DNA from: Caldilineaceae bacterium
GTDB lineage: Bacteria; Chloroflexota; Anaerolineae; Caldilineales; Caldilineaceae
Reading direction: 5' to 3'
DNA: 64,000 nt
Assembly: GCA_019637695.1 (NCBI GenBank)
Contig: JAHBVG010000015.1
Coordinates: forward strand, 1 to 64,000
Part shown: positions 42,536 through 47,839 of the stretch, one piece after another
How the letters are laid out: each line of letters opens with the position of its first letter
How positions within the stretch are numbered: position 1 is the stretch's first letter
Translations under genes and position numbers: made by a program
The notes under the pieces: generated by a model
Seen by the model: only the letters and a program-made list of their open reading frames with translations
What the model was told of the DNA's origin: nothing
Database searches by the model: none

Positions 42536-42600
42536 AAAGTGTAATGGGTAATGCGTAATCCGTAGTGACTTTCCCAATTACGGATTACGCATTACGCTTA
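42536..42600. repeat. Heptad-period hairpin (GTAATGC words)
   Basis: GTAATGG-GTAATGC-GTAATCC-GTAG words pair with TTACGGATTACGCATTACGC across a spacer of about 15 nt. The right arm encodes the last residues and stop codon of scpA on the minus strand. Confidence 0.8.
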
Positions 42601-43342
42601 ATACAATCTCCCCGAAGATCTCCTCTTGCTCCACCACAATCTCGCGCTGCTTGATCAATTCCAAAATCGCCAGGAAGGTGATGACAATCTCCATCCGGCT
42701 GCGCTGCTCTGAGAGGAGCGTGCTGAAATGGATGGCTACGCTTGTGCCGTCCGCGGCGGCGCGCACACGCTCGCGCACAATTTCGATCTGCTCGGCAATG
42801 GTAATGGGGTAGGTATGTACGCGCGGGCGGGGCGGATCCGTGGGGATACGGCGCAGCGCTCGTTGGAGCGCATGGGTCAGTTTGTCCAGGCTGACGCCGG
42901 TGAGATCGAGTTTCCGCTCAAATTTGGGCGTCGGGGCCAAACGCACAAAGGCGCGCAGACCAGCATCCTGGCGCAGGTGCAACCCCTCGGCCACGCTTTT
43001 GTAGCGGCGATATTCCAGCAACTGCTTGATGAGCGAGTCGCCGCTTTCCTCTTCTTCCTCTTCCGGCGGACGTGGTTTGGGCAGCAATGTACGCGACTTG
43101 ATGTAGAGCAACTTGGCCGCTACCACCAAAAAATCAGCCAGCGCCCCCGGCTCGATCTCTTCCAAATCCTCAATGGCTTTGAGGTAGGAATCAGTCACCG
43201 CCACCAGGCTGATCTCGTTGATGTCCATCTCCTCGCGCTCGATCAAATGCAGCAGCAGATCCAGCGGTCCTTCAAAAAAGGGCAAGCGTACGGGGTAACC
43301 AGCGCCGAATAGATTGGGTTTAATGGGGAGAGACGTGGACAT
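42578..43342 (-). CDS. scpA: Segregation and condensation protein A
   Basis: This 254-residue kleisin links the two heads of the SMC dimer and helps compact and segregate the chromosome. The N-terminal motif FFEGPLDLLLHLIEREEMDI and the segment GALADFLVVAAKLLYIKSR are characteristic. An acidic loop PPEEEEEESGD is in the middle. The usual partner scpB is not adjacent. The C-terminal VMRNP and the stop are encoded by heptad words (GTAATGC), so the natural end may have been replaced. ATG at 43342. Confidence 0.95.
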   Translation of the reverse strand: MSTSLPIKPNLFGAGYPVRLPFFEGPLDLLLHLIEREEMDINEISLVAVTDSYLKAIEDLEEIEPGALADFLVVAAKLLYIKSRTLLPKPRPPEEEEEESGDSLIKQLLEYRRYKSVAEGLHLRQDAGLRAFVRLAPTPKFERKLDLTGVSLDKLTHALQRALRRIPTDPPRPRVHTYPITIAEQIEIVRERVRAAADGTSVAIHFSTLLSEQRSRMEIVITFLAILELIKQREIVVEQEEIFGEIVLSVMRNP

Positions 43343-43370
43343 TCGGGTGTTCCTCTGCGGCAGGGGGGAC

Positions 43371-43440
43371 GGGTGATAGGTGACTGGGACAGCGTTGTGC
43401 TTCACGATCCCAGTCACCAGTCACCTATCACCTCTCCCCT
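43371..43440. repeat. Heptad-period hairpin (GTCACCA words)
   Basis: GTGATAG-GTGACTG-GGA words pair with CAGTCAC-CAGTCAC-CTATCAC across a spacer of about 25 nt. The right arm contains the stop codon of the minus-strand amidase gene. Confidence 0.8.
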
Positions 43441-46400
43441 CTCTGAATGCGCACAATCTCGTCATAGAGCAGATCGCGCCACTTGCGACCTTCCAGCCAT
43501 TCGCTGCCAGGGCAGGTGGTGCGGTTGTCGGGGAACTCGCGATGGCCCCAAATGTGTTGCAGAGGAACATGTAGATCTTGCATCAGCCACGCCACCAGAT
43601 GGGCGCCTGCACTCAGTTGTTCGGGCGTGGGCACACTGCCATTCATAAAGCTCCCGGCAAAGACAATGCCCACCGAATACTCGTTGTGACCAGCGGTGTG
43701 ATATGCGACCCGTTCCAGCGGTTGTGTGCGCAGGATAGTGCCATCGGCGCGCACAAAGTAATGGTAGCCGATCCCCGGCCAGGGACGCTTGTTACGGCTA
43801 GGGTCCTCGCTGATGTGCAGATCGGCGATCCGTTCTGGGCCCACATGTGGAGGAACCGCCGTGTGATGGATGGCAATGTGGGTGATCATGCTGCGGCGCC
43901 GTTCATCGTAGCGCAGCGTAGGATGCTGGGGCAGTTGGCCCACCACATCCACCACAGTGGGTTGGATCAGCATCTGCACCCGGTTCGGCTCGGCGCGCAA
44001 CGCCTCGATCTCCTGGCGCAGACGCGCATTTTCGGCGCGCAACCCGGTTACCTCTTGGTGAAAAATGTCGTTCTCATATTCCAACTGGCGGACGCGCCCC
44101 TCGATCTCAGCGGACGGATTCTGCTGGGGCGCGTCGGGCTGCCGCTCAGGCGCGATCTGTACCTCTTGCAGCAGCAGATCCTTCCAGCGTCGCCCACGCA
44201 GCCACTGTTCCCCTGGCGAACGATGGGGGATCAACTCGCTGACACCCCTGACCTCTGCCGTCGAAAGCTGAGGATACTGGGTGAAGAGCCAGGCAATTAG
44301 CCTGCCGCCCGCTTCGATCTGCGCTGGACTCGGCGGGAAATCGTCGAAGCTGCCGGCGAAGGCGATGTTGATGGCGTGGGCGATGTATGGTTTTTCCCCG
44401 TCCACCACTTGCAGCAGCGGCTGGGTCTGGTAGATCGCGCCATTCTCGGCAACGTAGAACTGATAGAGGATGCCGGGCAACCCGCGCTCACGGAAGCCGC
44501 GCGTAATCACGTCGATGGGCACATCCGCGGCGACGCCCGTATGGTTCACCACGATCAGGTGGATATCCTCAGGGCTACGGCTGTAGAACATCAGCGGATC
44601 GCGCGGCAACTGCGCGGTGATATCCTGGATTGGCGGCCTGGCAACCGAGGGCGGCGCCAATTGCGGCGCAACGGCAACGCCATTCCCCGATGTGGGCAGT
44701 TGAGGACGCGGGATACGCGCTTGCACCGCCTCACGCAGCAGCCGACGCCAGTTGGGACCTTCGCTAAAGGTAGCGCCAGGACTCAACGTTGGGATCAGTT
44801 CACCCAGGCCCACAATTTGATCGACGCCGATTTTGGGGAACTTCTGGAGCAGCCAGGCGCAGAGATCGGCGGTGGCGTTGATCTGCTCGTAGGACGGCGT
44901 CACCTCGTTGAACTCACCCTCCAGCGCGATGTTGATGCCAGCCACAGCCCATTCGGCGTCGGTGACAGCATCCTCAATGGCGCTTACCTGAAGGATTTCA
45001 CCACTCTGAGCGATGACGAAATTGTAGGCAATGCCAGGGTAGCCCGCGTCGATGTGCGCCTGGGCGAGGACGGGCAGCGGCAGGATCGGCGGCGCGCCCG
45101 TATGGCTGAGTACAAGGTAGCGCAAGTGTTCCAAGGAACGTCTGAGGTAGCGCTGATGACCTGTGGGCAGCCCTTCCGCCGCCTGGAAAATTTCTGGTTC
45201 GGGGGGCGGATCATATGTGGCATCGTCAGCCGCGTAGCTGGTCGTAACCTCGCTGTATGATGGCGCGGCTGGCGTTGGCAGGCTCCATGATGGCGTGCGT
45301 TCCGCTTCAGCAACCCGGCTCCGGCTGGGCGTGTCCACAGGTCGAGGCTGGGATGGGGTGGGCAGCACCGTCATCCAGCGGATCAAGGTGTCAGATTGCT
45401 GATCCTGAAACCAGGTCACGCCTTCATGGAGCAGATCCAACACCATTGTATAATTCCCCGGCTCTTTGGGGAGTTGGACCTGCGCGCTGATCGTCACATG
45501 TTGCTCGGGCGGCACATCGTGGGGCAGCGGAGAAAGCACCTGCTCTTCGGGGGATAGCGCCACTGCGACCTGATTTTGGTAGAAATGATACCCAAGCCGC
45601 ACCGGTTGTGGACCCTCCTGGGGCCAGGTGAGCGCGCCTAAGTTATGGACTGTCACCGGGAAGATGATGGTCTGGCCGGCGTAGAGGGTTTGGGGGAGCC
45701 GCGCCTCCATCCAATGCGCCCGGTAGCGAGGACCTGGCGGCAGGGGCGCTTCCTCTTGGGCGGCTGTTTCTCTCTCTTCGGGCAGGGTCTTGGTCGCGCT
45801 TTGCCAACGGTAGGGGTAACGCAACGCCTGTACAAAATCGCGGATCACGCCCGGTTTGCCCTCAATGTGCCAGTAGTCGATCATGGGCCAGCGGTGCAGG
45901 ATCAACGCGCGGATCTTCTGGTTGCCCGGTTCAATATTCCAGCGATGGATTTCGGCGTAGGCTTCTTGGATCCACCCGGTGTTGCTATCTTCCCACGGCT
46001 GAGACTGATTGGCCTCGGTAATATAGATCGGCATATGGCGCAGGTTGGAGGGGATGGCATACATAAAATCCCGATAGACCTGAAAGTGAGAAGCGTGCTG
46101 CGGAAAGGCGTCCACCGGGCTGTCATCGAGGATCAAGGCGGGATCGGCGCCGTGGGTGTAGGCGTGCAGGGTAATGCCGTCGCACTCGTTGGGGCCGATC
46201 AACATGAGGATGTCTTGGAAATATTTGATCCAATCGCCGTGGGGGTTGCCGGGGTAGACTGTATGCGTATTCCACGGGCAGACGGCGCCGATCAACACCC
46301 GATCCTCGGTATGGTCCGGCGCCAGGTGAATGGCGTTGCGGCAGAGACGATAGCAGCGCGCGTAGCGGTCGGGTGTAATCGGTTCGCCGGCGTCGACAAA

Positions 46401-46859
46401 GAGCGAAGTCTCTTCGTGGTTAATGTCCGCCAAATCGGGGTACAAAGCATTGTGGCGTTGCGCCAATCCGCGCAGAAAGGGATCGCCCTCATCGACAGGG
46501 CGCACAAGGCCGCGCACGCCAGGACGCTCGACAGCGTAGTTCATTTCGTTGCCAATGATCCAGAGGTGGCAGCCGCGGCTGGCAGCGACGAAATTGGCGC
46601 AGCGGCGGGCGAAATTTCCATATTCGCTGGTGACGGGCAGCGTACCGTGCGGATAGTAACCGTGGTTCAGCCGCACGATCACCGTCAACCCCTGCTCGCT
46701 GAAGGCGGAATAATCCTTACCGCTGCGATCATTGGGGTCGTGACCAATGGCCTCGCTGAAGAGAATCCAGCCGGGGCGACCCGCCTCCAGCATATAGAGT
46801 TCCCCACCGGCTTCTTGAACACCAAAAATCATCTCGGCGTCGAACCGCGTCTGGGCCAT
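43428..46859 (-). CDS. Glycosidase-like domain fused to three amidase-type (PGRP) domains
   Basis: This 1143-residue protein has no visible signal peptide. Residues 1-365 resemble a clan A glycosidase barrel, with Glu105 in WIIGNEMN and Glu282 in IYITEAN as candidate acid/base and nucleophile. Residues 380-500 form an Ig-like domain and 500-570 a Pro/Ser linker. Three amidase_2-like domains follow at 578-715, 765-900 and 990-1140, with a coiled coil at 918-957. Only the third keeps zinc ligands (IHHTAV, YHTAGHN, GHREF, TCPG). The first two have SHTGAP/NHTGVA but lack the later His and Cys. A cell-wall or glycan-processing role is likely. ATG at 46859 follows GGAGGG. Confidence 0.8.
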   Translation of the reverse strand: MAQTRFDAEMIFGVQEAGGELYMLEAGRPGWILFSEAIGHDPNDRSGKDYSAFSEQGLTVIVRLNHGYYPHGTLPVTSEYGNFARRCANFVAASRGCHLWIIGNEMNYAVERPGVRGLVRPVDEGDPFLRGLAQRHNALYPDLADINHEETSLFVDAGEPITPDRYARCYRLCRNAIHLAPDHTEDRVLIGAVCPWNTHTVYPGNPHGDWIKYFQDILMLIGPNECDGITLHAYTHGADPALILDDSPVDAFPQHASHFQVYRDFMYAIPSNLRHMPIYITEANQSQPWEDSNTGWIQEAYAEIHRWNIEPGNQKIRALILHRWPMIDYWHIEGKPGVIRDFVQALRYPYRWQSATKTLPEERETAAQEEAPLPPGPRYRAHWMEARLPQTLYAGQTIIFPVTVHNLGALTWPQEGPQPVRLGYHFYQNQVAVALSPEEQVLSPLPHDVPPEQHVTISAQVQLPKEPGNYTMVLDLLHEGVTWFQDQQSDTLIRWMTVLPTPSQPRPVDTPSRSRVAEAERTPSWSLPTPAAPSYSEVTTSYAADDATYDPPPEPEIFQAAEGLPTGHQRYLRRSLEHLRYLVLSHTGAPPILPLPVLAQAHIDAGYPGIAYNFVIAQSGEILQVSAIEDAVTDAEWAVAGINIALEGEFNEVTPSYEQINATADLCAWLLQKFPKIGVDQIVGLGELIPTLSPGATFSEGPNWRRLLREAVQARIPRPQLPTSGNGVAVAPQLAPPSVARPPIQDITAQLPRDPLMFYSRSPEDIHLIVVNHTGVAADVPIDVITRGFRERGLPGILYQFYVAENGAIYQTQPLLQVVDGEKPYIAHAINIAFAGSFDDFPPSPAQIEAGGRLIAWLFTQYPQLSTAEVRGVSELIPHRSPGEQWLRGRRWKDLLLQEVQIAPERQPDAPQQNPSAEIEGRVRQLEYENDIFHQEVTGLRAENARLRQEIEALRAEPNRVQMLIQPTVVDVVGQLPQHPTLRYDERRRSMITHIAIHHTAVPPHVGPERIADLHISEDPSRNKRPWPGIGYHYFVRADGTILRTQPLERVAYHTAGHNEYSVGIVFAGSFMNGSVPTPEQLSAGAHLVAWLMQDLHVPLQHIWGHREFPDNRTTCPGSEWLEGRKWRDLLYDEIVRIQRGER

Positions 46860-46865
46860 AGACCC

Positions 46866-46954
46866 TCCGGGAAAAGAATAATGATGAAAGAATAAAGAAT
46901 GTGGAATGAGGATCTTGCCCCATTTCACATTCTTTATTCTTTATTCTTTCCTTT
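46866..46954. repeat. Heptad-period hairpin (AAAGAAT words)
   Basis: GAATAATGATGAAAGAATAA-type words pair with the CATTCTTTATTCTTTATTC array across a short spacer. It ends at the stop codon of the CysQ-like gene and lies in the leader of the amidase gene, both on the minus strand. Confidence 0.8.
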
Positions 46955-47839
46955 TTACCAGAAGCCGTCATCCTCGTTGAAGCCTGCTTCTTCAACAATG
47001 TGCGAGACGGTTTCGATGATGCGATTGTGGATGGTGGCGTTGCTGGCGATGACGCCGTTGTGGGCGCGCACATCGCGCTTGTTGTATTCGAGGCGATTGC
47101 CCCAGCAATCGGTGATCTCGCCGCCAGCGGCGCGCAACACAGCTTCGGGCGCGCAGATATCCCACTCTTTGCAGCCAGGGCTGGGGTGGATGTAGATGTC
47201 GGCGAGTTGACGGGCAATCTGCCCAACCTTCAGCCCTACGCTGCCTGTGCGCCGTTCGCTGGTAATGCGCAGCGAGCGACGGATATCGTCCACAATCTGT
47301 TTGCGGTGGCTGCGGCTACTCACCAGCACCATCTGGCGCAATTCCCTGCGGTCGCTGACGCGGATCGGGATCTTCTCATTTTCCTCATACAAAAAAGCCC
47401 CCTGGCCTACGATGCCGGTGTAGAGCAATCCACCGTCGGGTTGATGTAGCACCCCCAGCACCGGACGCCCACCAATCGCCAGCCCGATCATAATCGAGAA
47501 TTCGCCGTTGCGGGCGATGAACTCCTTAGTCCCATCCAGCGGATCGATGATCCAGACCCGTTCTTTCTCCAGGCGCGATAGATCGTCTTGGGATTCTTCG
47601 GAAAGAATGCCATCGTCGGGGAAGGCAGCGTGGATGCGCGAAACAATGTGCTGATTGGCCGAGCGATCCGCCTCAGTGACAGGTTCATCCGGCGATTTAT
47701 ATTCCACCTCAGATGAACCTACATAGAATGTATTGACTATGGTTCCAGCCTCGCGGGCTACTTTCATGACAAGCGCTAGTTCCGCTTGAAGATCGTAGGT
47801 GGGCATTCCCCTGTTCTGAATTGTCTCTTGCTGGGACAT
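46955..47839 (-). CDS. CysQ/inositol-monophosphatase family phosphatase
   Basis: This 294-residue metal-dependent phosphatase has the family motifs [14 protein letters not shown] (Glu81) and [12 protein letters not shown] (Asp99, Asp102), with [11 protein letters not shown] near the end. The TKEF variant is typical of CysQ-like 3'(2'),5'-bisphosphate nucleotidases, which recycle PAP from sulfate assimilation. Inositol monophosphatase activity is an alternative. AAGGAG lies 6 nt before ATG at 47839. A long palindrome (copy B) lies just upstream. Confidence 0.88.

Follow-up and report, generated by a model that had tools for sequence, protein, structure and literature searches.

We analysed a 64,000-nucleotide stretch of a Caldilineaceae bacterium contig (hereafter the window; GenBank JAHBVG010000015.1, positions 1 to 64,000), in which one minus-strand gene encodes a protein that joins an N-terminal glycosidase-like barrel, an Ig-like domain, three Amidase_2 domains and a long helix (Table 1). 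The reading frame is open from the ATG at 46859 to the stop at 43428 (1143 codons, minus strand), in agreement with the single chain of 1143 residues that an earlier note on this DNA had described, and the domain composition listed there was recovered by Pfam, AlphaFold2 and Foldseek. Orthologues share the residue at which the ATG starts the protein; an in-frame GTG at 46928, which would add 23 residues, is absent from orthologues and was rejected as the start, the ATG being the codon that carries a ribosome-binding site. The neighbours of the gene are scpA and genes for an inositol monophosphatase, a UvrD-type helicase and an acetyl-CoA synthetase; no holin or lysis gene adjoins it, and the gene is thus outside any phage lysis cassette. 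A PHROG search matched the protein to an endolysin. The architecture is real and conserved, built from known parts plus a clan GH-A barrel outside the named families, and we found no description of the full architecture, or of a link between scpA and an amidase, in the open-access papers searched.

Table 1. Features of the barrel-amidase gene and its immediate neighbours in the window.
Feature	Position	Strand	Residues or evidence
scpA (SMC_ScpA), directly downstream	42578..43417	-	Pfam 125 bits
Coding sequence, 1143 aa, ATG start	43428..46859	-	Start backed by ribosome-binding site and orthologue starts
Amidase_2 domain 3, aa 975-1142, complete site	43434..43937	-	H998, Y1032, H1106, T1114, C1116
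Long helix / coiled coil, aa 915-955	43995..44117	-	AlphaFold2 helix 371-411 of the modelled half
Amidase_2 domain 2, aa 750-911, non-catalytic	44127..44612	-	N772, V873, Ser at Cys position
Amidase_2 domain 1, aa 563-722, non-catalytic	44694..45173	-	S585, L685, Ser at Cys position
NBR1-type Ig-like domain, about aa 380-500	45360..45722	-	Pfam N_BRCA1_IG E=1.8e-4; Foldseek 4ole
Clan GH-A-like (beta/alpha)8 barrel, aa 1-352	45804..46859	-	AlphaFold2 pLDDT 90.7; Foldseek
E282, candidate nucleophile at strand 7	46014..46016	-	Glu in 59/61 family barrels
N104-E105, candidate acid/base after strand 4	46545..46550	-	Invariant, biased by search pattern
Ribosome-binding site GGAGGG	46863..46868	-	Read directly; three bases 5' of ATG
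Inositol monophosphatase-family gene, upstream	46955..47839	-	Kept only in L006 and L050 among loci

The N-terminal barrel in cells and viruses

Sequence searches did not place the barrel of the window protein in a named glycoside hydrolase (GH) family: Pfam returned no family match and a profile search against PDB sequences returned no match, so that a fold search was required. The barrels of some relatives gave isolated, weak Pfam hits to DUF5722, Glyco_hydro_cc or GH39. An AlphaFold2 model of residues 1-505, built with 57 family sequences (pLDDT 90.7), shows eight strands arranged as in a (beta/alpha)8 barrel and, after them, the Ig domain; the top fold matches of its barrel were GH158, GH79, GH26, GH44, GH5 and GH128 (Foldseek), which do not point to a substrate. 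N104-E105 come just after the strand at residues 99-102 (strand 4) and E282 lies in that at residues 278-284 (strand 7), which are the positions expected of the Glu pair in a clan GH-A barrel. The earlier note had proposed a clan A glycosidase-like domain with Glu105 and Glu282 as its catalytic pair, to be abandoned if the first 365 residues contained no TIM barrel; a barrel was modelled there, with both Glu residues where the note had placed them.

The invariance of Glu105 is biased because the peptide WIIGNEMN served as one search pattern for barrel loci. Glu282, which lies outside all search patterns, is replaced in two of the 61 barrels (Gln in L007, Ala in L036) and occurs in every aligned viral barrel, where the Asn-Glu pair is also kept. 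Further conserved positions in the family alignment are R63, H232, Y234 and W324, which we take to be typical companion residues in clan GH-A. At residue 15 (46815-46817, minus strand), in the first barrel strand, the window protein has Gln where 57 of 58 sequences have His, possibly a lineage-specific change at the barrel mouth. The Ig part that follows the barrel has human NBR1 (4ole) as its fold match; its N_BRCA1_IG score in the window protein (22.4 bits) lies below the gathering score of 28 bits, the same model was matched in 20 of 57 alignment members (best member E=4.4e-9), and the Ig domain of L036 exceeds the gathering score at 55.3 bits.

A scan of species genomes found 60 barrel loci, nearly all of them in Chloroflexota, and the barrel is present in 230 of 298 genomes of the Chloroflexota class, as a single copy in the window's genome. 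The full architecture is found in 19 relatives besides the window protein, and other cellular barrel proteins carry M23, SH3_3, LysM, F5/8C or a ParG/RHH-like domain. Three proteins (L044:5269-6939, L041:5653-6921 and L043:5650-6921) have an N-terminal ribbon-helix-helix-type domain with LysM and the barrel and are without a signal peptide; the N-terminal domain of L044 matches ParG. In two genomes (L009:177-3209 and L046:2439-5837), an M23-barrel paralogue lies directly 5' of the three-amidase gene, giving a tandem of two signal-less wall hydrolases ahead of scpA.

The barrel is also encoded on 20 IMG/VR contigs, where it is fused to M23 (L118, L121 and L123), to GH108 and SH3_3 (L110 and its near-copies L107-L109) or to a PF11860 muramidase (L119), and these viral fusions to wall hydrolases mark the barrel as a lysin module. 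The viral status of the contigs was judged by neighbouring genes, which include minor tail and head proteins, several contigs being without a PHROG neighbour match. On L110, the barrel gene lies ~600 bp after a holin gene (phrog_199), and the barrel-GH108 protein itself matches the endolysin phrog_315. A search of named phage records (INPHARED) found no barrel, which leaves the IMG/VR contigs as the basis of the phage evidence. In the barrel tree, viral barrels are spread among deep branches and interleaved with cellular ones; a direction of transfer from phage to cell was sought in this tree but could not be read from it, and the cellular clade is not seen nested in phages. One frame on a viral contig (L117:2890-4416) joins the barrel to a Dam-type DNA methyltransferase; the fusion may be genuine or may stem from the assembly.

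Amidase domains and zinc ligands

All three amidase domains score above the Amidase_2 cut-off of 26 bits (38.2, 40.3 and 91.4 bits for domains 1, 2 and 3, respectively), and the protein holds the only Amidase_2 matches of the 6.8 Mb genome (Pfam). AlphaFold2 modelled three amidase folds (pLDDT 88.6; pTM 0.38 for the amidase half), the fold matches of which include LysC, PGRPs, Ts2631 endolysin, T7 lysozyme and AmpD (Foldseek); the lack of an amidase fold in domains 1 and 2, which the earlier note had named as evidence that would overturn its reading, was not seen, both folds being modelled. The curated cut-off of the AmpD equivalog model (NF008758) was not reached (37.2 versus 143 bits). The helix region ahead of domain 3 gave weak coiled-coil matches in Pfam.

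Active-site residues were surveyed in 20 three-amidase proteins (the window protein and 19 relatives). The zinc ligands are complete in domain 3 of all 20 and in domain 1 or domain 2 of none (0 of 20 each), in line with the earlier view that the last amidase is intact and the first two are degenerate. The site Tyr is kept in 19 of 20 copies of domain 3, 13 of 20 of domain 2 and 11 of 20 of domain 1, and mean all-pairs identity is 55%, 47% and 44% in the same order. The earlier note had also stated that the degenerate copies keep the fold-defining NHTG/SHTG start and lose the later His and Cys. The zinc ligand at that start is, however, the first His of HHT; domain 1 has Ser585 and domain 2 has Asn772 in its place, and both copies have therefore lost all three zinc ligands. 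In the amidase tree, the window's domain 1 sits on a long branch, and the domain 3 sequences form one supported group that also takes in the intact domains from L011 and L018, a grouping which implies that the other copies lost their zinc site long ago.

In PGRP-LB, zinc is bound by H42, H152 and C160, residues that are conserved in the catalytic PGRPs only, and Y78 is catalytic; animal PGRPs without zinc ligands bind peptidoglycan (PMC8124813). Domains 1 and 2 have the Amidase_2 fold without the zinc ligands and, by analogy, may bind peptidoglycan. A separate Anaerolineae group of barrel and amidase proteins (L014, L017, L026, L034 and L047) has Ser in place of the zinc Cys and does not adjoin scpA.

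Export and the scpA neighbourhood

We assessed signal peptides from a hydropathy scan of N termini. Peak N-terminal hydropathy is 0.61 in the window protein, compared with 2.7-3.3 in L095, L096, L100, L103 and L104, and the scan found no N-terminal signal peptide of the kind that would define a Sec-secreted autolysin. Among the Chloroflexota relatives with a resolvable start, N-terminal hydropathy is low and the scan found no clear signal peptide; three Sumerlaeota relatives have high N-terminal hydropathy. Within the window's genome, the N terminus is clearly signal-like in 5 of 10 other Amidase_3/M23 proteins sampled, so the absence belongs to this protein and not to the lineage. The absence of a signal peptide that had been read from the sequence is borne out by the scan. 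Three M23 peptidase proteins of the same genome (L097, L098 and L101) are also without visible signal peptides, and such wall hydrolases therefore extend beyond the barrel family. Phage endolysins normally lack signal peptides, and the window protein, too, has a wall-hydrolase domain without one; the presence of the barrel in phage endolysins could plausibly explain why the signal peptide is missing.

The gene scpA encodes the condensin kleisin, a cytoplasmic protein. All 21 members with an intact amidase whose DNA extends beyond the gene (the window, 18 further three-amidase loci, and also L011 and L018) have it as the next gene downstream, in the same orientation; none of the 25 other barrel loci (each with at least 1 kb downstream) does. 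Because the genes upstream of the amidase-scpA pair vary among loci, this adjacency is more than plain synteny. In several loci, the frames of the gene and scpA overlap by a few bases or sit within tens of bases of each other; in the window, the scpA frame may start after 10 bases (at a GTG) or after 85 (at an ATG). By this adjacency, the gene and scpA form an operon-like unit. A 16-base inverted repeat (GGTGATAGGTGACTGG ... CCAGTCACCTATCACC, 43372-43432, minus strand) spans the stop codon and the gap before the scpA ATG. We infer that the gene and scpA are co-transcribed, for the window by inference only, because its gap holds this repeat.

Proposed function and likeness to known systems

We consider the prospects slightly better than even that the protein is a cell-encoded, endolysin-like peptidoglycan hydrolase, signal-less and linked to scpA, that reaches the wall without Sec. 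Domain 3, judging from its complete active-site residues, would act as a zinc N-acetylmuramoyl-L-alanine amidase and release the stem peptide from the glycan, and domains 1 and 2, as zinc-less PGRP folds, may hold peptidoglycan and so give avidity. The barrel, with its intact Glu pair, would recognise and probably cleave a wall-associated glycan; since phages join the barrel to muramidases, the bond that these cut is a less likely target than a different glycan or linkage. Such a protein would most likely arrive at the wall by a Sec-independent route and act near the time of division, when the cell has both to segregate its chromosomes and to cut its wall. The related Litorilinea aerophila offers a precedent: it has a peptidoglycan-like layer, and a surface hook protein without a signal peptide has been reported (PMC13319060).

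Alternatively, the protein could process or sense muropeptides in the cytoplasm, with domain 3 acting like AmpD on fragments that have been imported, the barrel taking off a sugar in the manner of NagZ, and domains 1 and 2 sensing fragments. The absent signal peptide and the operon-like tie to a gene with a cytoplasmic product are consistent with such a role, and relative L044, with its ParG/RHH-like, LysM and barrel domains, looks cytoplasmic and counts against a role at the wall. The genome in which the protein is the sole Amidase_2 protein also encodes AnmK, MurQ and MraY, and the presence of AnmK and MurQ makes a cytoplasmic muropeptide role possible; PGRP-LB, whose zinc ligands are the same, binds the monomeric muropeptide TCT and also acts on it (PMC8124813). 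However, the protein falls short of the AmpD model, its three binding or cutting domains fit a polymer, and the M23 and muramidase domains of its relatives act on the polymeric wall. AnmK, moreover, has a patchy distribution: it occurs in 95 of the 298 class genomes and is missing from many that have the same architecture, which weakens AmpD-type recycling as a class-wide function, and overall we regard the cytoplasmic role as rather unlikely.

We would rate as very unlikely a captured phage endolysin, or a contractile injection system cargo, aimed at other cells. The PHROG endolysin match, the occurrence of the barrel in phage endolysins and the two contractile-injection-type loci of the window's genome would suit such an origin, but those loci lie on other contigs and not near the gene, which is itself kept beside scpA across the class, and the barrel tree gives no sign of the cellular clade lying within phages. 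Of the two loci, which are of the extracellular contractile injection type, one has a sheath, three tube proteins and an AAA ATPase (L105, G000:C129:88000-107000) and the other a sheath and baseplate proteins (L106, G000:C76:31000-50000). It is also possible, and in our judgement distinctly unlikely, that the scpA link is mere conserved gene order and the barrel a binding module without hydrolase activity: the activity of the barrel is a prediction, two barrels lack Glu282, the window protein departs from the nearly constant His at residue 15, and a stem-loop lies between its gene and scpA. Against this, the scpA adjacency survives changes in the upstream genes, the two reading frames overlap or all but meet at several loci, and, those exceptions aside, the Glu pair and the GH-A positions near it are conserved, also in phages.

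The walls and the division of Chloroflexota are poorly understood, and the endolysin-like hydrolase that we favour is a candidate wall enzyme, widespread and conserved, that presents three testable oddities: a family of GH-A barrels that is not covered by Pfam and is also used by phages, a pair of pseudo-amidases that may serve as binding modules, and an unbroken link to scpA. If that link is functional, the coordination of segregation with wall cutting becomes testable in Chloroflexota, and the barrel could become a tool to lyse Chloroflexota filaments. A broader proposal, which we offer tentatively and think unlikely to hold as a whole, is that a signal-less endolysin-like hydrolase with pseudo-amidases that bind peptidoglycan is coupled to condensin, tying segregation directly to wall cutting or muropeptide sensing, and that the barrel founds a GH-A family of its own, new, fitted to the walls of the lineage and shared with its phages. 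The function is predicted, and the interest of the protein rests on the unbroken scpA link and the phage-shared module.

Among known systems, the zinc amidases LysC, Ts2631 endolysin and PGRP-LB have a fold and an H-Y-H-C site like those of domain 3 (PMC8124813, PMC4573324); compared with Amidase_2, T7 lysozyme and PGRP amidases, the window protein has three copies per chain, two of them without zinc ligands, together with a GH-A barrel and an Ig domain. Animal non-catalytic PGRPs have the same zinc-less fold as domains 1 and 2 (PMC8124813), whereas the latter are bacterial, share a chain with a presumably active copy and are putative in their binding. The clan GH-A families GH158, GH79, GH26, GH5, GH128 and GH39 share the barrel, the Asn-Glu after strand 4 and the Glu at strand 7, but the window barrel is without a sequence match to a solved structure. 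NagZ belongs to a different family, GH3; staphylococcal Atl is Sec-secreted, and its glycosidase is GH73. Like the window protein, Atl joins Amidase_2 to a glycosidase in a single precursor (PMC2837410). AmpD and NagZ, a cytoplasmic amidase and glycosidase that process muropeptides (PMC5061867), are without signal peptides, as is the window protein, which nevertheless lies below the AmpD model cut-off. Finally, the endolysins of uncultivated phages (L107-L110, L118, L119, L121 and L123) combine the same barrel with wall hydrolases and have no visible signal peptide, but theirs is paired with M23, GH108 or a muramidase rather than with a three-amidase tail.
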